48,311 nt of DNA from an uncultured Eubacteriales bacterium (GTDB lineage Bacteria > Bacillota > Clostridia > Christensenellales > Aristaeellaceae): contig CADCJO010000007.1 in assembly GCA_902801765.1 (NCBI GenBank), positions 1 to 48,311 of the forward strand, read 5' to 3'. The position numbers and the translations under genes were made by a program. Of the stretch, positions 21,460-47,508 are shown one piece after another (within the stretch, counting starts at the first letter, position 1; every line of letters begins with the position of its first letter). The notes below the pieces were generated by a model. It searched no databases. It was given only the letters and a program-made list of their open reading frames with translations, and had not been told where the DNA came from.

Positions 21460-24400
21460 TTATTTTTGATCGGGATTCACGGGCTTGGCGCCGAAGTATT
21501 CGGTCATCTGCCGGTCGGTCAGCTTGAACTGTTCCTGCACCATGCCCCAGAGGCGGTAGGGACGGTAGACCATAACCGTGTTGCGCAGACGGTCCACGCG
21601 CTGATGCCAGTAGCGGATGGAGCCGGAGGCGGTGGTGGGGGAGTCCATGTTCATGATTTTGGTGTCCGGGTCGCCCGCCCATTTCTGGTAGTGCTTGTTG
21701 AGCTCCGGTTCGATCATGGCGGTCATTTCGTCCAGCTCGGCCTGCATCCGTTCGGTGGTCAGCTCCTGGAACACAAAGCCAAGCCTGCGCAGGAATTTGT
21801 CCCGCAATTCGTCCGACTCGATGATCTTTTTGAAAATCGTGTTGTTGATGTTCTGCTGGCCCATGCCCTTGTCCTTGAGGTAAGAACGCGGGCTGTTGAA
21901 GCTGGAATCGAACAGGCCGTAGTCCGTGTCGAACAGCAGGCACTTCCATTTCGCCCCTTCCGTGGGCAGCTTGTAGAACATGATGTTGCCGGGGTCGGAA
22001 TCGCCGAAGAACATTTTCACGGCGAACCAGTCGATGTAGCTGTCCACGTCCACGTTGTCCTTCAGGTATTGCAGATGCTCGGGGTTGGTGTTGGTGTTCA
22101 TGGTTTTGAGCGTGGAAATCATGGCGTTGTATTCCTTGCTGCTGCCCTGCACCACGCTGTTGTTGCCCTTGAGGATGGTGATGTTCTCCAGAATTTCCTT
22201 GTCCTTCTCCAGGTCGAGGCCCTCAAACTGGCCGATGGAGAAGCGGTCCTTGCGTTCGCGCAGGTTGTAGTGGCCCCAGTATTCGCCGTTCAGGTACACC
22301 ACCACGGGTTTCCAAGCCAGGGTGGGCATGTTGGGATGGATGTATTTATCCACCAGCCGGGTCTGCACGCCGTCGGCCACGCGGGTCCACACCGCGTCGT
22401 TGCCGGAATTTCTGAGGGTCAGGGATTTATAGAAGGTGTAGTCCCGTTCCTCAAAGAAGGGATAGTTGAAGAATTTTTCCCCCAGCGCGGCCTGGGCCCG
22501 CAGCTTGAAGGATTTCTGGGGCATGTCCAGAGAATACGCGCCCAGCAAGTCCATCTTGATGCCCTGGGACAGAATGACCTGACCGGTCGTATGGTCGAAA
22601 TACTCAAAGTATCCCTGCCGGTCATCCTTGCCATAGGTGCGGTATACGGGAGTGCGGAAGGGCAGGATGCGTTCGCCCTTCTCGTTGTACTTCTGCACCT
22701 CCGCGGCTTCGGGATTTTTCCTGTTGCGGGAGGAATGGTCCTGCTCCCGGCTCAGCAGGCCGGTGGCGGGGTCCCACAGCTCCTGCGGATCGCACACCAG
22801 GGAGATCACGTCCAGGGTGTGGTACAGCTCCATGAAATAGCTGGCCGTAGCGGTCTCCGAGGGCTGACGGCCCTCCTGGAAGCACCGGGCGCGGATGACC
22901 TTCGTGCCGAAGATTTCGATGGGCTCGGTATACACCTGGCTGTTTTCCGGCGTGGGGATGGAGCCGTCGGTGGTATAGCGGATCGTCACGCCGGGGGCGG
23001 CGGAGAGGGCGACCTTGAGTTCGCCGTAATATATCCCGCTGGGATGGTCGAACACCGGACGGGCGGCGAAGCCGGTAAAGCCCATGCTGTTCGCCGCGCC
23101 GGGGGTCGGCGTGTCATAATAAAAAAAGCCGTTGCTCCCCAGCGTCCTGCCATAGGATTTATCCGTGGGGATTTCCGGCAGGTACAGCCTGTCCAGCACC
23201 CGGCCGTCGGCATCGGCCAGGGTGAGCATTTCGCCGCCCATGCGGGAGAGCTTGAAGGAGGTTTTCAGCCGCCCGCTGAGGCTGGCATCGGTGCCGTCCA
23301 GCATGATGATCTTGTATTCCCCTGGGAAAATGGACGTCCCCTGGGGGAACGTCCATTTGCGGGGCCAGCTGATGCTGTCGCTCAGTCCCCAGCCGCTCAT
23401 GTCCCAGGTCTGGCTGGAGGCGTTATACAGCTCCACAAAGTCGCTGGAGGAGGCGTCGGGAAAGGGTTTGACCAGATTGGCGGAGCTCACCACCTCGGAA
23501 ATGTATACGCCCGTTGGGTTCAGGGCGCGGATATACTGGTCGGCCCGGCCAGCGCCGTATTCGTTGTTGGGCGCGCCGGGGGTGGGCAGGGTGAACACCT
23601 TCCAATTGCCGCCGTCATCGCGGCCATAGCTCATGTCCTTGCCGACGTTTGTCACCACCACCCGGTCCACCAGCTCGCCCAGCAGGGTGGAGAGAACGAT
23701 GGTGTCCTGCTCGTTGTTGATTTTAAAGTTGGCGTGCGGATAGCGTGTATCCTGCTCAACCTTGTCTTTCCCGGAGCAGAACACGATGTAGTAGCCGCCC
23801 GCGGGGATCACCGCGTCCTTGGGGAAGGGCCATTTGACGGGCTTGGTTTCATCGTCGGACAGGGCATAATTTCCTAACTTGATGTCCTTGCTGCCCGCGT
23901 TGTACAGCTCCACCCAGTCGCTCAATTCACCGTCCTCGTCCCGCAGACCGCTGCGGGGGGTGGGCACCACTTCGTTGATCATCAGCTCGCCGGGATGTAC
24001 CGTGTAGGCGGCCAGATAGGCTTCATAGCCCTCCTGGGTATTGGGATAACCGGGGGAATAAGCGCCGGTCTTTTCCCAGTTGCCATTTTCGTCCCGGGCG
24101 TAACTTTCGTCGGCGTTCAGGGTGGGTACCTTCACATTATCAATGGCGGTGCCGTTGGCGTCGAACAGATATACGTAATCGCCCAGGGAGCTGAGCTTGA
24201 ATTTGGCGTGGAATTCGCCGTGGGGGTCGTCCTTGTTGACGCTGTCGCAGAACACCACCACCCGGCCGTGGGCGTTCAGCGTCACGTCCGGGAACAGGAA
24301 CTTGATCCGGTCGGACCGGTCGGACAGGCCCACGCCCTTGATATTGATGGGCGTATCCAGCGTGTTTTCGATTTCCACCCAGTCGCCGAACTTGCCGCCT

Positions 24401-24627
24401 TCATCCGGCAGGGCGGAGGCGTTGTCGCTCATCACTTCGCTGATGCGCAAGCCCGCGTGGGTGCTCACCGTACCGTCAGCGGTGGCGTTCATCGCCTTGG
24501 CAATGGGGTTCTTGGGCATCACCAGCACAAAGAACACCAGCACGGCCGCCAAAACAAATAACAGCAGCCCGCGGTGATCCCGTCTGTTTCCTCTGCGGCG
24601 TCCGGTTTTACGCCGGGAATTTGCCAT
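21460..24627 (-). CDS. CotH kinase-family protein with lamin-tail domains
   Basis: 1055 residues from ATG 24627 (AAGGAGG upstream). A basic N-terminus and one helix (about 19-38) anchor it, with the bulk outside. Three lamin-tail (LTD) domains follow at about 60-190, 210-340 and 375-510 (GDWVEIENTLDTPI, LSDWVELYNAGSKDI, SDFVELYNASSQTWD), then a chitobiase-like C-terminal beta module (VTIRYTTDGSIPTPENSQ) near 545-600, and a CotH kinase fold at about 620-1000 with YLNGEYWGHYNLRERKD, GDSDPGNIMFYK and LLFDTDYGLFD. CotH kinases phosphorylate spore-coat or envelope proteins; this one lacks nearby spore-coat genes. Its own promoter and terminator make it monocistronic. Confidence 0.92.
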   Translation of the reverse strand: MANSRRKTGRRRGNRRDHRGLLLFVLAAVLVFFVLVMPKNPIAKAMNATADGTVSTHAGLRISEVMSDNASALPDEGGKFGDWVEIENTLDTPINIKGVGLSDRSDRIKFLFPDVTLNAHGRVVVFCDSVNKDDPHGEFHAKFKLSSLGDYVYLFDANGTAIDNVKVPTLNADESYARDENGNWEKTGAYSPGYPNTQEGYEAYLAAYTVHPGELMINEVVPTPRSGLRDEDGELSDWVELYNAGSKDIKLGNYALSDDETKPVKWPFPKDAVIPAGGYYIVFCSGKDKVEQDTRYPHANFKINNEQDTIVLSTLLGELVDRVVVTNVGKDMSYGRDDGGNWKVFTLPTPGAPNNEYGAGRADQYIRALNPTGVYISEVVSSANLVKPFPDASSSDFVELYNASSQTWDMSGWGLSDSISWPRKWTFPQGTSIFPGEYKIIMLDGTDASLSGRLKTSFKLSRMGGEMLTLADADGRVLDRLYLPEIPTDKSYGRTLGSNGFFYYDTPTPGAANSMGFTGFAARPVFDHPSGIYYGELKVALSAAPGVTIRYTTDGSIPTPENSQVYTEPIEIFGTKVIRARCFQEGRQPSETATASYFMELYHTLDVISLVCDPQELWDPATGLLSREQDHSSRNRKNPEAAEVQKYNEKGERILPFRTPVYRTYGKDDRQGYFEYFDHTTGQVILSQGIKMDLLGAYSLDMPQKSFKLRAQAALGEKFFNYPFFEERDYTFYKSLTLRNSGNDAVWTRVADGVQTRLVDKYIHPNMPTLAWKPVVVYLNGEYWGHYNLRERKDRFSIGQFEGLDLEKDKEILENITILKGNNSVVQGSSKEYNAMISTLKTMNTNTNPEHLQYLKDNVDVDSYIDWFAVKMFFGDSDPGNIMFYKLPTEGAKWKCLLFDTDYGLFDSSFNSPRSYLKDKGMGQQNINNTIFKKIIESDELRDKFLRRLGFVFQELTTERMQAELDEMTAMIEPELNKHYQKWAGDPDTKIMNMDSPTTASGSIRYWHQRVDRLRNTVMVYRPYRLWGMVQEQFKLTDRQMTEYFGAKPVNPDQK

Positions 24628-37424: not shown

Positions 37425-39191
37425 ATGGCAAGAAATCGGAACCATGAATTTTCCGAGGGCACTGGCCTGAATCCCATGGATTTGGGTACCTATGCCCACG
37501 ACGCGGAAGAACGCCGCCCGATCTGGGCGCAGCGGAGCGAGGGGGAGGAACTGTCCGCCTGGAAACGCCCTGCGTCAGAAGAAAAAAGCGGCGGGACAGA
37601 GGCTGAAGTTCCTTTGCCGGAACCTCAAACGGATGCGCCGGACGCGCCAGCACCTGACGAACCGCTTGAGCAGGAAACCCAGGAAAGCAAGCGGGAACCG
37701 GCCGAACAGGAAACGCCTTCCAAGCCGGAGGAAACAGCGGAAACGAAAGGAAAAGCCGAAGACACGCGGGAACGCATCGTGCAGACCCGGGCGGAAAAAG
37801 AACCGGAGGACGAGGCGCGCGAAGCGGTCAGGGTGGAAAGCGGCGCGTTCAGCCGCAGAAACAGCCCCTCTGCATCTGTCAAGCAAACCGACGACGCGGG
37901 CGGAAAAGGCGGTAAGCCCGGCAAAAAAACGCCTAAAAAAGGGAAAAAAGGAAAGAAAAGCAAAAAGAAAAAGACGGCGGAGGAGGAACGGCAGAGCTTC
38001 CTGCGGGCGATGATGATCATCCTGCTGTGCGGCGGGCTGTTCCTGATGGCGGCGGCGATGGTGGCATCCAATTTTGTGCAGCTGCCCATCCTTTCCGTCC
38101 CCCGGAAGATTGTTACATCCATTGTATCGCCCGTCCAGAGCTTTTTTTCCACGGTTACGGGCAATGTGGCGGATTATCTGCGGATGCTGAAGATCCGCGG
38201 GAACATCGAATTTGAATACGAACAGCTGCGCGCCAAGCTGGACGACTACGCCACGGACGTGGCCATGATGGAGGAGCTGCGGCGCGAGATCGAAGCGCTC
38301 AACAACCAGCTCTACGAGCAGTCGCAGCCCAGCCATGCCGCCATGGATCCCATCGCGGCGACGGTGATTGGCACGGTGGGCAACAACTACTTTTCCACGC
38401 TGACCCTGAACGTGGGCAGCGACAACGGCGTGGCGGAGTATATGGCCGTCGTGTCCGCGGGCGGCCTGGTGGGGGTCACGTACAATGTAATGCCCCATCA
38501 GTGCGACGTTCGCTGCATCATCGACAGCGACTGCACCGTGGCCGGGCTGGTGCAGTCCAGCCGTGACCAGGGCAGCGTAAAGGGCACCCTGGGCACCAAT
38601 GGCGAGCCTATGTGCCGCATGTACTATCTGCCGGACAATTCCCTGCCCCGTCCCGGCGACGTGGTGGTCACCTCCGGCGTGGGGCTGGAGTTTCCCAAGG
38701 GCATTCCTATCGGGTACATCCGGGAAAGCACCCGCGGTATGGATGAAAACAAATCCTACGTGGTGCTGGAGCCGGTGGTGGATTTCCAGCATCTGGAATA
38801 CGTGACGGTGTACCGTTACCGTCCTTCCTACGCTGAAAACGCGCAGGAACGCGTGAGCACGTCCCAGAATATCCGCCTGGAGCCGCTGACAACGGCGCGG
38901 CCCGTGCCCTCCTTCCAGATGGAAGGGCTGAGCGATTTCATGTACGCGGCGACGGGCGCGCCTGGCAGCGCGACCGAGGCACCGGAAGCCAATGCAACGC
39001 CGTCGCCCACGCCCAGGATGACGGCCACGCCCGATCCGAACGCCACGGCGCTGCCGCCCAATCTGGAATACGTGGCGCCCATCGCGTTCGGCGAAACGCC
39101 TTCGCCCTCGCCGCGGCCCACGTTTACGCCCACGCCGACTCCGGTACCGATCCCGGACCCCGGCGCGATGACAGTGGAGGATGACGAGTGA
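37425..39191 (+). CDS. mreC: Rod shape-determining protein MreC with long disordered arms
   Basis: 588 residues, about twice the usual 280-300. Residues 1-185 are a disordered, Glu/Lys/Pro-rich cytosolic arm that ends in a Lys-rich run (KKTPKKGKKGKKSKKKK). One helix (about 194-214) and a coiled coil (about 255-295, FEYEQLRAKLDDYATDVA) lead to the MreC beta-domain (about 310-470; NVGSDNGVAEYMAVVS, GDVVVTSGVGLEFPKGIP). The last 90 residues are a Ser/Thr/Pro-rich tail. Start follows AGGAG. Confidence 0.94.
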   Translation: MARNRNHEFSEGTGLNPMDLGTYAHDAEERRPIWAQRSEGEELSAWKRPASEEKSGGTEAEVPLPEPQTDAPDAPAPDEPLEQETQESKREPAEQETPSKPEETAETKGKAEDTRERIVQTRAEKEPEDEAREAVRVESGAFSRRNSPSASVKQTDDAGGKGGKPGKKTPKKGKKGKKSKKKKTAEEERQSFLRAMMIILLCGGLFLMAAAMVASNFVQLPILSVPRKIVTSIVSPVQSFFSTVTGNVADYLRMLKIRGNIEFEYEQLRAKLDDYATDVAMMEELRREIEALNNQLYEQSQPSHAAMDPIAATVIGTVGNNYFSTLTLNVGSDNGVAEYMAVVSAGGLVGVTYNVMPHQCDVRCIIDSDCTVAGLVQSSRDQGSVKGTLGTNGEPMCRMYYLPDNSLPRPGDVVVTSGVGLEFPKGIPIGYIRESTRGMDENKSYVVLEPVVDFQHLEYVTVYRYRPSYAENAQERVSTSQNIRLEPLTTARPVPSFQMEGLSDFMYAATGAPGSATEAPEANATPSPTPRMTATPDPNATALPPNLEYVAPIAFGETPSPSPRPTFTPTPTPVPIPDPGAMTVEDDE

Positions 39192-39838
39192 AGCCTTTGA
39201 AACGGGCGCTGAAGGTGCTGCTGCTGACAATGGCGGCGTACCTGGTGCAGGTATGCGTGATGCGGTATTTCACGGTGCGAAGCGTGGTGGGCAGCGTGGT
39301 TTTTGCGGTGCTGGCCATCATTGTGGTTTCCTGCGGAAAAAAATACGCCTTCTGCGCCTCCTGCATCATTGGCATGGCCATGGAGAGCATGGCGTCCAAT
39401 TCCAACGTGCCATCGCTGTATGTGATTGCGTATCCCGCGATCACCATGCTCTGCGCCCAAACGTTTGCCGATATGACCGACCGACAGCTGGAGCAGCGGC
39501 GTCTGGCTTACGAGCGGCGGCAGGTGCGCATCAGTCAGGGCCAGGGAAAGAAGCATTGGTGGTATTCCTTCGAACTGCGGTATCGGGACACGGATCTGCC
39601 CCCGGTGATCCGTATTCCCCTGTGCGCGGGAGAAATGGATCTTTTTTTCAACCTGGCGCTGGTCGCCTATATGTATTTGATCGGCGAAGAGCTTTCGCTG
39701 ATTCATGTCTATCGCCTGGCGGGCTCCGTGGCGTACACGATGGGGCTGGCGGTGGCGCTGATGCTGCCGTGCCGCAAATTGCTGGGCATGTATCCCCGCG
39801 TCAGGCGGGCCAAAGAGGAGGTGAAGGAGCGTGAGTGA
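39188..39838 (+). CDS. mreD: MreD-like integral membrane protein
   Basis: 216 residues, starting at GTG 39188, which overlaps the mreC stop by 4 nt; GGAGGATG lies upstream. Five or six helices (LLLTMAAYLVQVCVM, VFAVLAIIVVSCG, GSVAYTMGLAVALML) with a hydrophilic loop at about 90-135. Sequence is divergent from MreD but position and topology support the call. A parallel +1 frame over the same region is rejected: it has no hydrophobic segments. Confidence 0.82.
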   Translation: MKPLKRALKVLLLTMAAYLVQVCVMRYFTVRSVVGSVVFAVLAIIVVSCGKKYAFCASCIIGMAMESMASNSNVPSLYVIAYPAITMLCAQTFADMTDRQLEQRRLAYERRQVRISQGQGKKHWWYSFELRYRDTDLPPVIRIPLCAGEMDLFFNLALVAYMYLIGEELSLIHVYRLAGSVAYTMGLAVALMLPCRKLLGMYPRVRRAKEEVKERE

Positions 39839-42515
39839 GGAATTCCGCAAAAGCCGCAAGGATCGCGGCAAGGACGCCAAGACGAATATTCGGTTTATTG
39901 TATTTCTGACCGGCGTGGCGGCAATGTTCGGCGTGCTGTTTTTCGGGCTGTTCCAGCTGCAAATTGAAAACGGCGAGCAGTACGCCCAGGCCACATCCAG
40001 CCAAAGCATCAAGAAAATTGCCGTCAAGGGCAGCCGCGGCATGATTACCGACATAAACTCCGTGGTGCTGGCCAAGAGCGAAAAGGCTTACAACGTGACT
40101 TTTTACCGTGAAAACGAGGACTGGGACTATCCTACCAAGCAGCTGCTGGAGGCCATTCAGATTGTGGAAAAATACGGCGGCACGGTGTCGGTCACTTCGC
40201 CCCTGATCCGCAATGAGGAAAGCGGCGCGTGGGAATTCAACTTTGGCTCCGGCATCTCCGAAACAGCCTGGGAAACCCGGCGCAATTACTTTTATTCCAA
40301 CAATTATCTGGGCAGCCGCCAGTCCACCCCCGCCGACTGCTTCAATAAGCTGCGCGAGCGCTTTGGCTTTACCGCGCTCTGCGACGGCACTTACCTGCTG
40401 GCGCTGGACAAAAACGGCAATTCCGTTGTGATGGCGACGGACGACCTGATCGTGCCCGGCTCCAAGGAACCCGGCAATCCCGGCATTCTGGATCTGGCCC
40501 GCATCGACCTGGACCGGGTGGCGGAATACATTCGGGTGAGCGAGGAGGACGTGCTCAAGGTCATCGCGATTAACGCCACCATGCAGGACAACGCGTTCCT
40601 TTCGCTGCCCGTGCCGTTCGCCGAGGACGTGAGCTATGAAACGGTCAGTGAAATTGAGGGCCGCAGCATGTCCATGCCCTGGGTGGGCATCACCATGGGC
40701 GACAAGCGCGTGTACCCCAACGGTTCCCTGGCCGCGACCGTCATCGGCTATACCGGCAAGATTCAGGATGCCGAATATTACTTCAACGAGCTCAAGCCCG
40801 CGGGCTATGCCATGAACGATTATATCGGCCAGGCGGGTATTGAGAACAGCATGGAAAACTGGCTCACCGCCAATATCACCGACCGCCAGGGCGCCCGCAT
40901 CGTGGAGGTGGACCCCCAGGGCAAGGTGACCCGCGAGCTGGATTACATTCCGCCCCAGGACGGCAACACCGTCAAGCTCACCATCAACGCCCAGTACCAG
41001 GCCGCGGCGGAGCGCTTTATCCGGGACAACGTGAACGCCTCCCGCGATATTCAGGAAGAGAGGATGCGCGAATCCAGCTGGCTGGAAACCTATAAGGACA
41101 AGATCGCCGTGCGCGACTGGGAAGAATTCCCCATCCGCCTGGCCACCACCGGCGTGCTGATCGTCATGGACGTACACACCGGCAACATCCTGGCCCTGGC
41201 CCAGTATCCCAACTACGACCTGAACGCCATGGCCCGCGGCGGCGAAGCGGCCATGGAAATCGTGCAGGACGAGCGGGGCCTGCTGATGAATTACGCCATC
41301 CAGACCCGCGCCGAGCCCGGCTCCATTTTCAAAATGTGCACCGGCCTGGCGGGGCTGACCAATAAAGTCATCACCCCCGACACCCTCATCAGCGACGGCG
41401 GCGGCTTTGACCGCTACACCAAGGTGAAGGCCGACATGCCCCGCTGCTGGACCAACCACCCCGAGGATCACCATGATCTGAACATCGCGGGCGGACTGAC
41501 CAAATCCTGCAACTTCTTTTTCTACACCGTAGCCTCCCGCCTGTTTGACAGTTATCCCGGCCAAGAGCTTTTGTACAAGTACGCCGCCCAGATGGGCCTG
41601 ACCAGCAAGACCGGCATCGACCTGCCTGGCGAGCTGCGTCCCATCGTGGGCAACCAGACCAACCTGTACGATCCCACCGTCAGCCTGGAGGAGCAGATGA
41701 CCTCCACGCCCATCCTGGTGGCGGCGTCGCTGAAAAAGCACATCAACAACTATGCCGCCAGCTACGGCATCAGCTATGACGAAGCCCGTCTGAACAAGTG
41801 CATCAAGAAGCTGATGGACATGGCCATCAATACACCGCAGGATCAGTGGGTATCCGCTGCCCGCCCCATCTTCATGACCGAGCTGGGCATGACCCGCACG
41901 ATGGTCATGCAGCAGGCCCTGATGGGCGACATGTGGAACTACCTGAACACCATTAAATGGGGCGGCGGCCAGGAAATTCAGATGGGCGTGGGCCAGTCCA
42001 TCACGCTGCTGACGCCCATCTCCGTGGTGCGTTACGCCGGCGCGCTGAGCAATTCCCTCACGGTCTGGAACCCCAACATCGTGGACTCCATCATCTCTCC
42101 CGAGGGCGAAATCCTCTCCCAGCGCCATGCCACCGTGTTCAATAAGCTGGATAGCGCCCGGGAGTACCTGCCCTACATCCTGGACGGACTAAAGGGCGTG
42201 GTGGACGAAGCCGGTACCGCCGTGCGCCGTTTCCGGAACTGGAAATACAAGGCTGAGGATGTGATGGTCGGAAAGACCGGAACCTCCCAGATGACCATCG
42301 GCAAGGTGCGTATCGACCTGGAAAACAACGGCTGGTTTATTTCCCTCTGCCCCAAGGACGACCCTGAAATCGCCGTCGTTTCCTTTATACCCAACGGCTT
42401 CTCCGGCAGCTATACCGTAGACGCGAACCGTGATTTCATTGGGTATTACCTGGATGAGAAGGAGAAAAAGGACGTCGTTATCGCCCTGCCCGGCGGAAAT
42501 CAGCTGGCGCCGTGA
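39831..42515 (+). CDS. mrdA: Class B penicillin-binding protein 2 (elongation transpeptidase)
   Basis: 894 residues (class B enzymes are commonly 600-720). One helix near 22-44, an N-terminal dimerisation region and a transpeptidase domain with SIFK (Ser498, Lys501), SCN (559-561) and KTG (815-817). The SxN-to-KTG distance of about 256 residues is roughly 100 more than in E. coli PBP2; the extra lies around 625-705 (SLKKHINNYAASYGIS). It starts at GTG 39831, overlapping mreD by 8 nt, after GGAGGTGAAGGAG. Partner of RodA downstream. Confidence 0.95.
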   Translation: MSEEFRKSRKDRGKDAKTNIRFIVFLTGVAAMFGVLFFGLFQLQIENGEQYAQATSSQSIKKIAVKGSRGMITDINSVVLAKSEKAYNVTFYRENEDWDYPTKQLLEAIQIVEKYGGTVSVTSPLIRNEESGAWEFNFGSGISETAWETRRNYFYSNNYLGSRQSTPADCFNKLRERFGFTALCDGTYLLALDKNGNSVVMATDDLIVPGSKEPGNPGILDLARIDLDRVAEYIRVSEEDVLKVIAINATMQDNAFLSLPVPFAEDVSYETVSEIEGRSMSMPWVGITMGDKRVYPNGSLAATVIGYTGKIQDAEYYFNELKPAGYAMNDYIGQAGIENSMENWLTANITDRQGARIVEVDPQGKVTRELDYIPPQDGNTVKLTINAQYQAAAERFIRDNVNASRDIQEERMRESSWLETYKDKIAVRDWEEFPIRLATTGVLIVMDVHTGNILALAQYPNYDLNAMARGGEAAMEIVQDERGLLMNYAIQTRAEPGSIFKMCTGLAGLTNKVITPDTLISDGGGFDRYTKVKADMPRCWTNHPEDHHDLNIAGGLTKSCNFFFYTVASRLFDSYPGQELLYKYAAQMGLTSKTGIDLPGELRPIVGNQTNLYDPTVSLEEQMTSTPILVAASLKKHINNYAASYGISYDEARLNKCIKKLMDMAINTPQDQWVSAARPIFMTELGMTRTMVMQQALMGDMWNYLNTIKWGGGQEIQMGVGQSITLLTPISVVRYAGALSNSLTVWNPNIVDSIISPEGEILSQRHATVFNKLDSAREYLPYILDGLKGVVDEAGTAVRRFRNWKYKAEDVMVGKTGTSQMTIGKVRIDLENNGWFISLCPKDDPEIAVVSFIPNGFSGSYTVDANRDFIGYYLDEKEKKDVVIALPGGNQLAP

Positions 42516-42527
42516 TTTTTCAGAGAG

Positions 42528-42620
42528 CAGAGTTCAGAGCACAGAGTTCAGATTGATTGGCGGACCAACTGTATGAATCGACAAAAAGGGGCATCTGTAT
42601 CAACTGTACTCTGAACTCTC
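42528..42620. repeat. AGAGTTCAG direct and inverted repeats between pbp2 and minD
   Basis: AGAGTTCAG occurs at 42529-42537 and 42543-42551, and its complement CTGAACTCT at 42611-42619. The two outer copies could form a long-loop hairpin. TCTCCTTTCATTTTT follows, so it may end pbp2 transcripts. This 144-bp gap contrasts with the overlaps elsewhere in the cluster. Confidence 0.45.
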
Positions 42621-42659
42621 CTTTCATTTTTCCCTGTTCAACTGAGTGAGGTGAGAAGG

Positions 42660-43448
42660 ATGGGCCGCATCTTTTCGATCATGTCCGGCAAGGGCGGCGT
42701 GGGGAAAAGCACGCTGTCCACGTCGCTGGCGGTCTATTATGCCCGGATGGGAAAGCAGGTAACGCTGCTGGACGGCGATATCGGCCAGCGCTGCGCCGAC
42801 CTGATGCTGAATGTACAGGACCGGGTGGTGTATGACCTGGGGGACGTGGCGGACAAGAGCTGCGAGCTGAAAGAGGCGCTGCTGCCTCACCCTGCGCTGC
42901 CCAATCTGACCCTGCTGGCCGCGCCGCAGATGCTGGCCCCCTCAGATGTGAAACGCAAGGCCATGGACAGAATCATCACCAATCTGGCCGAAGCGTCGGA
43001 CATTCTGCTGCTGGACGCTCCCGCGGGGATCGGGAAGGGGCTGAAAAACCTGCTGGGCGAAACGGCGGAGCCCGTCATTATCGCCACGCCGGACGATGTG
43101 TGCATCCGTGACGCGGAGCGCCTGGCCGCCCTGCTTTCGCAGCGGGAGGAGCCGCGGCCTTCGCTGGTGCTCAACCGCGTGCGGCCCCTGTGGGTGCGCC
43201 GCGGGCTGGTCGCCCCGCCCGATCAAATCGCGTTAACCCTGGATATGCCGCTGATGGGCGTGATTCCCGAAAGCGCGAAGATTTACAAGGCGCTTTTGCG
43301 CCATGAAACGGCGCTGGACTGCGGCGATAAAAAGGTCGCCGCCGCGGTCGAAGTGATCGCCGCCCGGCTGCTGGGGGCGGACGCCCCGCTGCCGGAATAC
43401 GCGCCCAGCCCCATGCTGCGCTTTTTTAACCGTGGAGGTGAAGCTTGA
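42660..43448 (+). CDS. minD: MinD-like septum-site ATPase
   Basis: 262 residues from ATG 42660. Deviant Walker A GKGGVGKSTL (near 9), VTLLDGDIGQRCADLML and DAPAGIGKGL are MinD-type; the C-terminus APSPMLRFFNRGG could be a short membrane-targeting helix. MinD places the division site with MinC and MinE. In many Clostridia minCDE lies at this point between pbp2 and rodA, but here no minC or minE is present. Confidence 0.9.
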   Translation: MGRIFSIMSGKGGVGKSTLSTSLAVYYARMGKQVTLLDGDIGQRCADLMLNVQDRVVYDLGDVADKSCELKEALLPHPALPNLTLLAAPQMLAPSDVKRKAMDRIITNLAEASDILLLDAPAGIGKGLKNLLGETAEPVIIATPDDVCIRDAERLAALLSQREEPRPSLVLNRVRPLWVRRGLVAPPDQIALTLDMPLMGVIPESAKIYKALLRHETALDCGDKKVAAAVEVIAARLLGADAPLPEYAPSPMLRFFNRGGEA

Positions 43449-43449
43449 A

Positions 43450-44643
43450 ATGATGATGGAAACCCGGGGCACCCGGGAGGGCCGGTTCGACTGGCCGCTG
43501 GTGATTGCCGTGTATGGGCTGAGCCTGTTCGGCCTGCTGTGCATCGCCATGGCGCGTTACGTGCCGTCCCAGAGCGAAGGGCTGCCGCTGCTCAATAAAA
43601 TCCTGAACAACCGCTCCAGCATGTGGCAGTCCATCTTTATTCTGGTGTCGCCCATCATTGTCGGCGTGATTGTGGCCATTCCCACAGAATTCATCAAAGC
43701 CCGTGTGCGGCTGGTGTATTACGGCGTGCTGGCGCTGCTGCTGGTCACGCTGGTGCTGGGTCAGGTGAGCAACGGACTGAGAGGCTGGCTGCGTTCTGAT
43801 ATTCTGGGCCGCTCCATTCAGGTGAGCGAGTTTTCCAAGCTGTCCATTCTGCTGATGCTGGCGCGGCAGCTGGCCCGGTCGGAAAAGCCCATGAGCAAGT
43901 TCAAGGACTTCATGAGCATCATGATCATCGTAGGTCTGCCGTCGCTGACGGTGCTGGCCCAGGGCGAAACGGGCACGGTCATCGTCATCGCGTTCATGTT
44001 CATGATCATGATTTATTTTGCCGGGGTGGACATGCGCATCATCCTAACGTTCGGTCTGCTCGCGGTGATTGGCGTAGGCGCGCTGGTGGCTTACGGCATG
44101 CTGTCCGAAACGACGGACTACCGTATCCTCCGCCTGCTGGCCTTCCTGGACCCGCAGAAGTATGAGCAGTCCGGCGGCTACCAGATTCTTATGTCTCAGA
44201 AGGCCATCGGCGCGGGGCAGCTAACCGGCCAGGGCACCTTCCTGCCCGGCTCCTGGACCACGCTGGGCTACGTGCCCGAAAGCTCCACGGACGCGATATT
44301 CACCGTGGTGGGGGAGAGCTTTGGCTTTGTGGGCTGCGCCGCGCTGCTGCTGACCTATATGTTCATCATTCTGCGCATGACTTGGATCGCCCGGTTCACG
44401 CGGGACAAGTTCTGCCAGCTGGTCATCATTGGCGTTGTGTCGATGCTTCTGTTCCACGTGTTCCAGAACGTGGCCATGTGCATGGGCATCATGCCCATCA
44501 CCGGCATTCCGCTGCCGTTCCTGAGCTATGGCGGCTCCAACTTTATTTCCAATATCGCCGCTGTCGCGCTTGTGTTGAATATCGCCCGCGGAGGCAACAT
44601 GATTGCTGCCAGCGCGACGCCCGTGGCGAAGCTGAATTTCTGA
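43450..44643 (+). CDS. rodA: RodA/FtsW/SpoVE-family peptidoglycan polymerase
   Basis: 397 residues from ATG 43450 after GGAGG, 1 nt beyond the minD stop. About ten transmembrane helices; family motifs GQVSNGLRGWLRSDILG, QGETGTVIVIAFMF, FLPGSWTTLGYVPES and the signature PLPFLSYGGSNF near the end. SEDS glycosyltransferase; as it follows pbp2 and mre genes it is probably the elongation enzyme RodA. Confidence 0.95.
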   Translation: MMMETRGTREGRFDWPLVIAVYGLSLFGLLCIAMARYVPSQSEGLPLLNKILNNRSSMWQSIFILVSPIIVGVIVAIPTEFIKARVRLVYYGVLALLLVTLVLGQVSNGLRGWLRSDILGRSIQVSEFSKLSILLMLARQLARSEKPMSKFKDFMSIMIIVGLPSLTVLAQGETGTVIVIAFMFMIMIYFAGVDMRIILTFGLLAVIGVGALVAYGMLSETTDYRILRLLAFLDPQKYEQSGGYQILMSQKAIGAGQLTGQGTFLPGSWTTLGYVPESSTDAIFTVVGESFGFVGCAALLLTYMFIILRMTWIARFTRDKFCQLVIIGVVSMLLFHVFQNVAMCMGIMPITGIPLPFLSYGGSNFISNIAAVALVLNIARGGNMIAASATPVAKLNF

Positions 44644-45357: not shown

Positions 45358-45384
45358 CGGAGAAGCGTATTGTACGCTTCTCCG
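45358..45384. terminator. Bidirectional terminator between the GNAT and rho-like genes
   Basis: CGGAGAAGCGTA and TACGCTTCTCCG are perfect 12-bp complements with a TTG loop. On the minus strand a TTTTT tract follows, so it mainly ends the rho-like transcript. Confidence 0.8.
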
Positions 45385-45411: not shown

Positions 45412-47295
45412 TCATGTATTCAGCAGGCTTTCAAGCGCGTCGTTGGTTTCGGCCTGAGCGAACAGGGACAGCACGGTGTTCATGGCCTCGGCGGCGGACA
45501 GATCCTTGATCATCTCACGAAGCTTTTGCGCCATAGCCTGTTCCTTGTCCGACAGGAGCCATTCATCATGGACAGTGACGCATTTTTCAAGCTGCATCAG
45601 GATGGGCTGGTTCGCGCCTTGCTGGCGCAGGACGCAGATCATGTTGCCATTGCCCTCGAAGCTCTGGCAGATGGCGGCGTCCAGATCGCTGCCGGTATCG
45701 GTGAGCATGGTGGCGATGATGGTCAGGCTGCCGCCTTCACGGGTATTGCGCGCCGCGCCGAAGAAACGCTTGGGCTTGTTCAGTGCGCCTGCAGCCAGGC
45801 CGTTGTTCAGGGTACGGGCATTGGCGGGAGCCACAGCGTTACAGGCGCTGGCCAGCCGGGTCAGGCTGTCCACCAGCAGCACCACGTCCTTTTTCTGTTC
45901 TGTCAAGCGCATGGCGCGCTCCAGCGCCAGCTCCGCCGCACGCACCTGGTTTTCAGGCGATTCGTCAAAGTTGGCGTATGCCATGTCGCATTCCACGCTG
46001 TCTGCCAGCTCGGTCACGTCCTCGGGCCGCTGATCCAGAAGCAGCATCATCAGATGGGCTTTTCCATGGTTTTTGCTGATGTGGGCAGCCAGCTTTTTGA
46101 TCAGGGCCAGCCGGTCCAGCCGCGAGGAACAGCACAGCATGGCGCGCTGGCCAAAGCCGATGGGGGATAGCAGGTCGATCAGCCGCAGGACGGGATCGTT
46201 TTCTTTCTTGCCGCTCAGCGTCATCCGCTTCTTGGGATAGATGGGGGTCAATTCGTCAAAACGTGCGCGGTCGGGCATCTCGTCAGGCAGAGCCCCGTTG
46301 ATTTCCGTGATGTACAGCATGGCGCTGTACCGGTCGGATTCGCGCTGCGGACGAACCTTACCGACGATATAATCGCCTGTGCGAAGAGAAAAACGGCGAA
46401 TTTGGGCGTTGGAGATATATACATCCTGCTTGCCGGACAGATAATGGTTCGTCCTCAGGAAGCCATAGCCATCCGGATGAACCTCCAGAACGCCTTCCCC
46501 GTCAAAGCAGTCGCCGGCCGCCAGAATTTCGGACAGGCCGGGATTGGCCGGCTGCTCCCGATGGGCGGGATAGCTCGGCTGAGCATAACCGTAGCCGCCC
46601 TGGCCGTTATAACCCGAGTTGGCCGGGACGCCGGTGTAATCCTGCTGAGTGGGCGCGCCGTAAGGACGGTAAGGCTCCGTTTCCTGCTGGGGCTGCTCGG
46701 GGCCGAAGCGGTTCACATAGGTCGGCTGTTGGGGACGCTGCTGCATCCGGGGATCGGAACGGGTATAACCGCGCTGATCCTGCGGACCGGGCTGGGCAGG
46801 CCGCTGCCAGGAGTTGGCCGCGGGCCGCTGATAGCCGGGCGTTTGCGCCTGATAGGTGCGTGGATTGTGCCAGGCGCGGGAACCTTCCATCGTGAAGGCA
46901 GGCGCTTTGGCGGAAATTGTATTGAGAGAGGAGCCAGGGGCAGGCGCGGGGTTCGCGGCCGGCACCGGGCGGGGCGTCACCCGTGCGGAAGAAGAACGCA
47001 GGGATGGATTGGCCGTGAGGACGGGCACGTCGTCATCTTCATCTATTTCTTCATCGTCGGTAATGATCGCGGCACTGCGGATCGGTCGGGAAACAGGCTC
47101 CTGTTCCTGCGGCGCGGATTCGGCCGGAGCAATTGCCGGGGTTTCGTCCTCAGGCCCTGGGGCAGCGGCCGTCGCGGCTTCCTTCAATTTTTCCACAATA
47201 CCTTGCTTGTTGATGCCCGCGCCGAGCTTTACGCCCATTTCCTTGGCTTTCTGACGCAGCTCGATCACGGACATTTTTTCAAAAGATTCGCTCAT
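45412..47295 (-). CDS. rho: Rho-like protein with degenerate ATPase site
   Basis: 627 residues (E. coli Rho 419). N-terminal Rho_N helices (1-42), a low-complexity insert (about 43-255; Pro, Gln, Gly, Tyr and Arg rich), a cold-shock-like primary RNA-binding domain (about 260-345; HPDGYGFLRTNHYLSG, DVYISNAQIRRFSLRTGD) and the RecA-type core. The core keeps PIGFGQRAM, VVLLVDSLTRL (D476), NKPKRFFGAARN and GGSLTIIAT. The Walker A PPKAGKT is SSRLDRL (390-396), catalytic Glu211 is Gln422, the Arg353 position is Pro, the Arg366 finger is His, and R-loop Lys326 is Asp. ATP hydrolysis looks impossible by the known mechanism. AAGGAGG precedes the ATG. Confidence 0.88.
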   Translation of the reverse strand: MSESFEKMSVIELRQKAKEMGVKLGAGINKQGIVEKLKEAATAAAPGPEDETPAIAPAESAPQEQEPVSRPIRSAAIITDDEEIDEDDDVPVLTANPSLRSSSARVTPRPVPAANPAPAPGSSLNTISAKAPAFTMEGSRAWHNPRTYQAQTPGYQRPAANSWQRPAQPGPQDQRGYTRSDPRMQQRPQQPTYVNRFGPEQPQQETEPYRPYGAPTQQDYTGVPANSGYNGQGGYGYAQPSYPAHREQPANPGLSEILAAGDCFDGEGVLEVHPDGYGFLRTNHYLSGKQDVYISNAQIRRFSLRTGDYIVGKVRPQRESDRYSAMLYITEINGALPDEMPDRARFDELTPIYPKKRMTLSGKKENDPVLRLIDLLSPIGFGQRAMLCCSSRLDRLALIKKLAAHISKNHGKAHLMMLLLDQRPEDVTELADSVECDMAYANFDESPENQVRAAELALERAMRLTEQKKDVVLLVDSLTRLASACNAVAPANARTLNNGLAAGALNKPKRFFGAARNTREGGSLTIIATMLTDTGSDLDAAICQSFEGNGNMICVLRQQGANQPILMQLEKCVTVHDEWLLSDKEQAMAQKLREMIKDLSAAEAMNTVLSLFAQAETNDALESLLNT

Positions 47296-47344
47296 CCATA
47301 TCCTCCTTGAAATGATGAAAAAAGAAATGGCAAACAGAACGATT

Positions 47345-47362
47345 CCGTTCGAGATCGAACGG
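47345..47362 (-). promoter_or_regulatory. Hairpin in the rho-like leader
   Basis: Perfect 7-bp stem CCGTTCG/CGAACGG with a 4-nt loop, about 50 nt upstream of the start codon in a leader of about 175 nt. Rho genes are often controlled in the leader; no function is shown here. Confidence 0.4.
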
Positions 47363-47479
47363 ACGGTGGGGCAGAAGCTTATCCATTTTGATGAAAAAAC
47401 CGAATGACAGAGACTCTCATTGCATACTTCTTTCCTGCGAAATTGAACGGCGCGTGAAAACTTTTATGCCGCTGGAGTA

Positions 47480-47508
47480 ATTATATCAAAACCGGATTGA
47501 AATTTCAA
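47480..47508 (-). promoter_or_regulatory. SigA-type promoter of the rho-like gene
   Basis: Minus-strand TTGAAA (47508-47503), 17-nt spacer, TATAAT (47485-47480) with an upstream TG (extended -10). A strong match. Confidence 0.8.

Follow-up and report, generated by a model that had tools for sequence, protein, structure and literature searches.

Can a bacterium keep Rho after the protein has lost the residues that make it a motor? The question is raised by a gene on a 48,311-nucleotide contig (CADCJO010000007.1) of an uncultured Eubacteriales bacterium from the family Aristaeellaceae; we refer to this whole stretch of DNA as the window and to its genome as G000. The gene encodes a homologue of the transcription termination factor Rho. 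In Rho, K184, E211, R366 and the lysine of the R-loop (E. coli numbering) are required for ATP hydrolysis and translocation. Passages of a paper on Mycobacterium tuberculosis Rho agree with this requirement, treat Rho as a motor with highly conserved catalytic residues, and describe the motor residues as highly conserved among divergent Rhos (PMC8828861). A natural group that keeps Rho without the motor would allow RNA binding by the protein to be told apart from its ATP-driven role. An earlier note on this DNA had read the gene as such a case: an expressed and selected Rho that binds RNA, has lost its ATPase motor, and perhaps replaces or regulates a true Rho. Our alignments establish descent from Rho, retention of the primary RNA-binding site, and loss of the residues that bind and split ATP, and structure prediction indicates that the Rho fold is retained. 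We consider it probable that the protein is a motor-dead Rho retained for its binding to RNA, and that it carries an N-terminal arm that we take as disordered.

The window protein is a Rho homologue that lacks the residues of the motor

The open reading frame starts with ATG, contains no internal stops and encodes 627 residues, which we numbered against E. coli K-12 Rho in a MAFFT alignment (feature coordinates are given in Table 1). The Pfam domain Rho_RNA_bind (PF07497) matched residues 267–337 with an E value of 4e-30, and the primary-site residues F/Y62, F64, R66, D78 and Y80 were all present, so the RNA-binding domain is as intact as the earlier note had described it. The F1/Rho ATPase domain (PF00006) matched less strongly, at 55.6 bits. 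The protein passed the cut-off of PRK09376 (401.1 against 315) and did not reach those of the TIGR00767 equivalog (384.8 against 509.45) or of NF041509, the short form of Rho2 (304.4 against 628). In trees, it grouped with canonical Rhos from the same family. Residues 259–627 were modelled with AlphaFold, and the model, with a predicted local distance difference test score (pLDDT) of 92.9, aligned to E. coli Rho (8q3q) with a template modelling (TM) score of 0.93 and a root-mean-square deviation of 2.0, consistent with a predicted RecA/F1-type C-terminal fold as in Rho.

The alignment reproduced the substitutions of the earlier note that we checked. SSRLDRL stands in place of the Walker A motif PPKAGKT at residues 390–396 (P179 to S390, K181 to R392, G183 to D394, K184 to R395 and T185 to L396) and lacks the GK[TS] pattern. 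Glu211 is replaced by Gln422, Arg353 by P564 and the R-loop Lys326 by D537, and the counterpart of the Arg366 finger is V575, which sits in VTVHDEW (573–579). Kept are the Walker B Asp265 (D476) and R212 (R423), and K283 aligned with R494. Over nine motor positions that we scored throughout this work (K/R181, G183, K184, T/S185, E211, D265, K/R326, R353 and R366), the window protein retains two, D265 and, by the rule that accepts K or R, R181. The missing catalytic, finger and R-loop residues support the loss of the ATPase motor as far as sequence can tell. The protein is thus a Rho by homology that, judged by its motor residues, fails the definition of an ATP-driven termination factor. There is a warning here for annotation, in that PRK09376 would label it "transcription termination factor Rho", although termination by the known mechanism is not to be expected of it.

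We rejected an assembly error or decay confined to one genome. Walker A was broken in all five nearest relatives (86, 83, 81, 77 and 75% identical), none of which carries the intact PPKAGKT that the earlier note had named as a sign of misassembly or recent decay; because these relatives were assembled separately and have the same site broken, the loss is not a product of chance or of assembly. A phage-borne source was also rejected, since Walker A was intact in all nine viral-contig Rhos that cover it.

No second, intact Rho was found in the genome or across the genus

A search of G000 (2.40 Mb, 81% complete) with PF00006 returned two ATP-synthase-like genes, one weak match and the window gene, and no second Rho, with GKT or otherwise. 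Across the genus, no Rho exceeded the TIGR00767 cut-off in any of 29 genomes, nine of which have a completeness of 90% or more and a contamination of 5% or less. The window-type rho gene was found in 28 of the 29, and the remaining genome, G009, has a contig-edge fragment of the same gene. An intact second Rho elsewhere was therefore rejected as an explanation. Because no other Rho was found in G000 or in the genus, there is no true Rho that could be found for it to regulate: the suggestion of an antagonist or regulator fell away, and that of a replacement held, as the window gene is the sole Rho found and took Rho's place.

Two remote members of the genus retain a P-loop without the other motor residues (GPKTGKT in G001, 59% identical, and QPGSGKT in G017, 50%). 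A second gene in G010 (C306) is near-identical to a gene of genus g43 (end branch 0.004), was taken as contamination, and is counted below in clade I, outside the genus. Elsewhere in the family, genome G091 (genus g64) carries two different degenerate rho genes, L097 and L099.

Motor residues appear to have been lost stepwise within the family

Rho exceeded the cut-off in 56 of 100 genomes of the family. Beyond the window genus, we fetched 38 sub-cutoff Rho genes; the 56 over-cutoff genomes supplied 22 more genes, and we aligned 58 of these 60 after dropping two short fragments (L104 and L108). The resulting 94-row alignment comprised the 58 fetched genes, 28 rows of the window genus, the extra G010 row, six Rhos of the order from outside the family, and E. 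coli Rho; row groups received their genus-based names once the alignment had been inspected. One sub-cutoff row, G122 (C7), proved to be a canonical Rho truncated at a contig end, and we grouped it with the canonical rows. All nine motor positions were present in 28 of 29 canonical rows, the remaining one being cut by a contig end, and in none of the 64 degenerate rows, which come from 16 genera (28 rows from the window genus) and retain one to eight positions. R353 was kept in 2 of these 64 rows, R366 in 21 and GK[TS] in 19.

The degenerate rows fall into two clades. Clade I (21 rows) retains GK[TS] in 11 rows, E211 in 9, R366 in 4, R353 in none and R/K326 in 19; clade II (43 rows, the window included) retains GK[TS] in 8, E211 in 32, R366 in 17 and R353 in 2. 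We built a tree without the motif columns by a quick search, excluding 17 of the 94 rows as long-branched, near-duplicate, foreign or cut. The canonical sisters of the two clades differ (g24 for one, g46 and g36 for the other), which gives two changes from canonical to degenerate; a single origin was not rejected by the approximately unbiased test (p 0.153). GK[TS] changed state ten times on the tree, E211 nine times and R366 seven times. Different motor residues are missing in different genera, suggesting that the motor was dismantled stepwise.

Clade I genes have neighbouring genes in common with the canonical Rhos of the family. They therefore look like the original rho changed in place, and not like paralogues. 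The neighbours differ in the window genus, so that orthology there rests on the tree. The most eroded genus is g23, where the RNA-binding model scored 45–56 bits in all three proteins and PF00006 was not found at E 0.01; the chain from one of its genomes, G123, was predicted at a pLDDT of 85.6.

Site variability and selection in the two halves of the protein

We compared mean site entropy between the groups. In the RNA-binding domain it was 1.11 bits for canonical rows, 1.22 for clade I and 1.15 for clade II. The corresponding values were 0.31, 1.41 and 2.35 bits in Walker A, 0.34, 1.26 and 2.38 bits in the R-loop, and 0.68, 1.73 and 2.53 bits over positions 351–367. Invariant in all clade II rows having a letter at the position were G53, G61, G94, D95, G99, N120, G171 and R173, together with P213, E214, R252, E255, R305 and G311. 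The primary-site pattern was retained in 28 of 29 canonical rows, 20 of 21 in clade I and 30 of 43 in clade II (24 of 28 in the window genus).

New states have also become established at the altered positions. In the supported clade of 14 rows that contains the window, R184, Q239 and W370 were found in all 14 rows and D183 in 13, and position 326 was acidic throughout (eight E, six D). The same rows all keep D265 and R212, none has R366 or K/R326, and E211 is still present in 11. The new states are thus fixed or nearly so in this clade.

To gauge selection we used the ratio of nonsynonymous to synonymous substitution rates (dN/dS). Between the window species and G019, the RNA-binding domain gave 0.046, the ATPase domain 0.110 and the Walker A stretch 0.066. 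Ten other chosen degenerate pairs gave 0.03–0.19 for the RNA-binding domain and 0.04–0.34 for the ATPase domain, and four chosen canonical pairs gave 0.14–0.36 for the ATPase domain. About 3% of single substitutions in the window gene create a stop, so that some 15 stops would be expected since the split from G019 (neutral distance 0.26) had the gene been unconstrained; none was seen. Internal stops were likewise absent from the 28 genus genes (24 complete, four cut by contig ends) and from 35 degenerate genes of other genera (one cut). Purifying selection on close relatives is supported by these data.

The signals for expression are conserved as well. Among 12 aligned genus members, the window counted, 11 have the TATAAT of the promoter (the exception is G005) and 11 have the ribosome site AAGGAGGA, in place of which G023 has AAGAAGGA; the rest of the leader is mostly divergent. 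The conserved promoter and ribosome site are among the signs that support an expressed gene. Hence the earlier claim of an expressed and selected gene stood, but its addition that the gene is not decaying was too strong: the motor half is under weaker constraint than in canonical Rho, though the constraint is not absent.

Eroded Rhos in other families of the order

We extended the search to the order and the class. Rho exceeded the cut-off in 96 of 151 genomes of the order and had no match in eight, and the remainder was examined in part. From other families of the order we fetched 14 regions, which held six eroded Rhos (G212 of family f28, G261 of f14, G155 of f32, G213 of f29, G031 of f8 and G230 of f31), seven Rhos with all nine positions intact despite a low TIGR00767 score (G204, G185, G037, G221, G143, G142 and G217) and one unrelated ATPase (G191). 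Since half of the 14 low scorers fetched were intact, a low TIGR00767 score alone is no proof of motor loss. In G230, the eroded copy (L253, with AAADRA at Walker A) stands alongside a 603-bit Rho in the same genome; unlike the window protein, it is possibly a real partner or antagonist of a Rho with a canonical score.

We also searched 140 genomes of the class that lie outside the order: 119 Rhos passed the cut-off, one gene was truncated at a contig end, and 20 genomes gave weak matches or none at all. The Rho RNA-binding domain was found in none of these 20 and in both of two Rho-bearing genomes searched alongside, and no eroded intermediate was seen among the 140. Within the samples searched, the erosion of Rho looks like a habit of this order. 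Five genomes of 0.8–0.9 Mb from genus g77 of family f28 (G151, G174, G194, G229 and G243) had no Rho match, and the eroded Rho of G212 belongs to another genus of that family, g116.

Retention, decay and other readings

The residues lost from the window protein serve, in Rho, ATP binding and splitting, sensing across the subunit interface (the Arg finger) and coupling to RNA movement (the R-loop lysine, now acidic). Such a protein would not translocate on RNA, nor would it release transcripts from RNA polymerase in the established way. It would have been kept because binding to single-stranded RNA is useful by itself. The protein is probably oligomeric, and flexible arms might help it to gather on RNA, by comparison with the working Rho of Bacteroides thetaiotaomicron (PMC10284900); it could act as an RNA-coating, pausing or silencing factor. 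Family-wide, the motor would have been taken apart step by step, while in most genera the RNA-binding domain apparently stayed under the constraint seen in canonical Rhos. More broadly, and a little short of an even chance in our judgement, the order may repeatedly have converted Rho, a termination motor, into an RNA-binding scaffold that has no motor but an ATP-independent job worth keeping. If so, the gene and its promoter would have been retained over the radiation of the genus and longer, and the family would form a natural gradient between a complete motor and no motor. Such a series of canonical, partly eroded and fully eroded Rhos makes the usefulness of Rho without translocation testable.

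Several observations weigh against retention for a function. The median ATPase-domain dN/dS was 0.54 in clade I and 0.56 in clade II against 0.28 in canonical Rhos, with RNA-binding-domain medians of 0.39, 0.35 and 0.34, respectively. These medians cover within-group pairs with an estimated dS of 0.05–1 (45 of 210 pairs in clade I, 312 of 903 in clade II and 126 of 405 canonical) and serve for comparison between groups only, as synonymous sites are saturated in the all-pairs data and dS is underestimated for distant pairs. Around Walker A, some degenerate pairs reach a dN/dS of 0.49–0.54. The strict primary-site pattern is missed by 13 of 43 clade II rows (one of them cut); the departures are mild in most and strong in all three rows of g23 and in one row of g28. 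Related groups exist without any detectable Rho, so loss of Rho is tolerated.

Purine bias also gave no clear sign of a change at motor loss. PMC13323073 predicts that genes lose their purine excess once Rho is gone. We called genes by a simple rule of ribosome site and length; the window supplied 48 kb with 30 genes, and each of the other genomes 3.3–20 kb with 1–17 genes. The bias was 0.023 in 18 clade I genomes, 0.024 in 32 clade II genomes and 0.032 in 25 canonical genomes of the family, and 0.090 in six genomes from other families of the order, two of which gave just three genes each. The degenerate genomes did not differ clearly from the canonical genomes of the family (Mann-Whitney p 0.18 and 0.12; 0.55 and 0.07 for purines at fourfold sites), and the bias therefore does not separate dead from live motors. 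The purine excess is weak (about 0.02–0.03) throughout the family even where Rho is canonical, in these small gene samples. This hints that Rho termination had little weight in the family already before the motor was lost, in which case the loss of the motor would have been allowed.

The chief rival to retention builds on these points and holds that Rho became dispensable in these hosts, that the motor erodes first, and that the gene is heading for loss with a useless residual activity. It draws on the roughly twofold higher ATPase-domain dN/dS, on the graded erosion (one to eight of nine positions) that ends in g23 with a damaged primary RNA site, on the eight Rho-less genomes among 151 of the order, and on a purine bias that is low family-wide (0.032 in canonical genomes versus 0.090 elsewhere), as if Rho termination mattered little. 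We nevertheless regard relaxed decay as unlikely. Reading frames stay open over large distances, the ATPase-domain dN/dS is 0.04–0.34 in the 11 chosen degenerate pairs, the promoter and ribosome site are conserved, new residues have become conserved, and the variability of the RNA-binding domain is unchanged. Moreover, the lack of eroded intermediates among the 140 genomes of the class outside the order argues that erosion is apparently not the usual road to loss.

An RNA-binding Rho without a motor might instead work at RNA polymerase, as a pausing or antitermination factor that docks on the polymerase and the nascent RNA, cannot finish, and so stalls or protects transcription. The kept RNA-binding domain and predicted fold are consistent with this, and solved structures of Rho in complex with RNA polymerase exist. 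NusG exceeded its cut-off in 24 of 31 degenerate-Rho genomes and in 12 of 14 canonical-Rho genomes, with no clear difference, and the KOW domain was present in all 30 aligned NusG proteins. We had also considered loss of NusG as a marker of Rho loss and rejected it, as NusG is similarly frequent in both sets. NusG was, however, not found in G000, an incomplete genome, and we judge the polymerase-bound reading improbable. In the NusG alignment (loci L211–L240) we observed an extra residue in the KOW domain (MFLGRE versus MF-GRE) in 19 of 20 degenerate-Rho genomes (G052 excepted) and in two of ten canonical-Rho genomes, G073 (g46) and G130 (g36).

That a rebuilt site still hydrolyses nucleotides and terminates transcription is very improbable. 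In its favour, all 14 rows of the window clade have the Walker B Asp and R212, 11 of them have E211, R184 and D183 are conserved there, and clade I often retains GK[TS] (11 of 21) and R/K326 (19 of 21). Against it, the window protein is without K184, T185, E211, K326, R353 and R366, all 14 rows of its clade lack R366 and K/R326, and Arg is not known to substitute for the Walker A Lys.

Relation to known Rho proteins

The window protein is homologous to the E. coli and M. tuberculosis Rhos (TIGR00767/PRK09376) over both the RNA-binding and the ATPase domain, and its structural alignment with E. coli Rho shows 40% identity. It shares with E. coli Rho the predicted fold and the primary RNA site and differs in that its motor residues are destroyed. 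Like the Rhos of B. thetaiotaomicron and Clostridium botulinum, it has a long insert of biased composition between the N-terminal bundle and the RNA-binding domain. This arm has 14% Q+N, 15% P and no K, and from composition we take it as disordered. In B. thetaiotaomicron, a disordered insert is reported to drive phase separation that raises Rho activity (PMC10284900), and C. botulinum too has a Rho with a disordered arm or prion-like domain (PMC4703818). The B. thetaiotaomicron motor works, whereas that of the window protein appears to be gone. Because canonical members of the family have the arm too, it is not tied to motor loss. The window protein is homologous to the short-form paralog Rho2 (NF041509) and falls far below its cut-off; it is not an extra copy like Rho2, since no other Rho was found in the genome. 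We found no report of a natural motor-dead Rho in the literature searched, outside which lie the Rho surveys of Moreira 2024 and D'Heygere 2013.

Expression signals and flanking genes

Table 1. Features of the rho locus in the window, ordered along the minus strand; the promoter and hairpin calls are consensus matches only.
Feature	Position	Strand	Basis
Sigma-A type promoter, TTGAAA-17-TATAAT, TG before the -10	47480..47508	-	11 of 12 consensus matches
5' leader, ribosome site AAGGAGGA immediately 5' of the start	47296..47479	-	Sequence, alignment
Rho-like protein, 627 residues, sole Rho found in the genome	45412..47295	-	Open reading frame, profile searches
N-terminal arm, biased composition, about residues 56–258	46522..47130	-	Composition; ends set by alignment
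Primary RNA-binding domain, residues 267–337, intact	46285..46497	-	PF07497
Destroyed Walker A, PPKAGKT to SSRLDRL, residues 390–396	46108..46128	-	Alignment
Catalytic Glu211 to Gln422	46030..46032	-	Alignment
Walker B Asp265, kept as Asp476	45868..45870	-	Alignment
R-loop TDTGSDLD, Lys326 to Asp537	45679..45702	-	Alignment
Arg347/Arg353/Arg366 (finger) region, all replaced (Q558, P564, V575)	45559..45624	-	Alignment
Terminator-like hairpin with T run	45358..45384	-	Sequence

No Rfam match was found near the window rho. Within the leader, we observed a block, GCCGTTCA..TTT...GAAAGAAG(C/T)ATGCAA.TGA at 47411–47452 on the minus strand, that is common to G000, G019, G007, G013, G004 and G020; in five of these six carriers it reads as a run of purines plus the two-codon frame ATG CAA TGA.

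Elsewhere in the window, a protein of 1055 residues (21460–24627, minus strand) combines lamin-tail domains, in three stretches, with a CotH kinase domain. A run of cell-shape genes (37425–44643, plus strand) is headed by MreC, followed by genes that, judged by eye, resemble MreD, a penicillin-binding protein, MinD and RodA/FtsW.
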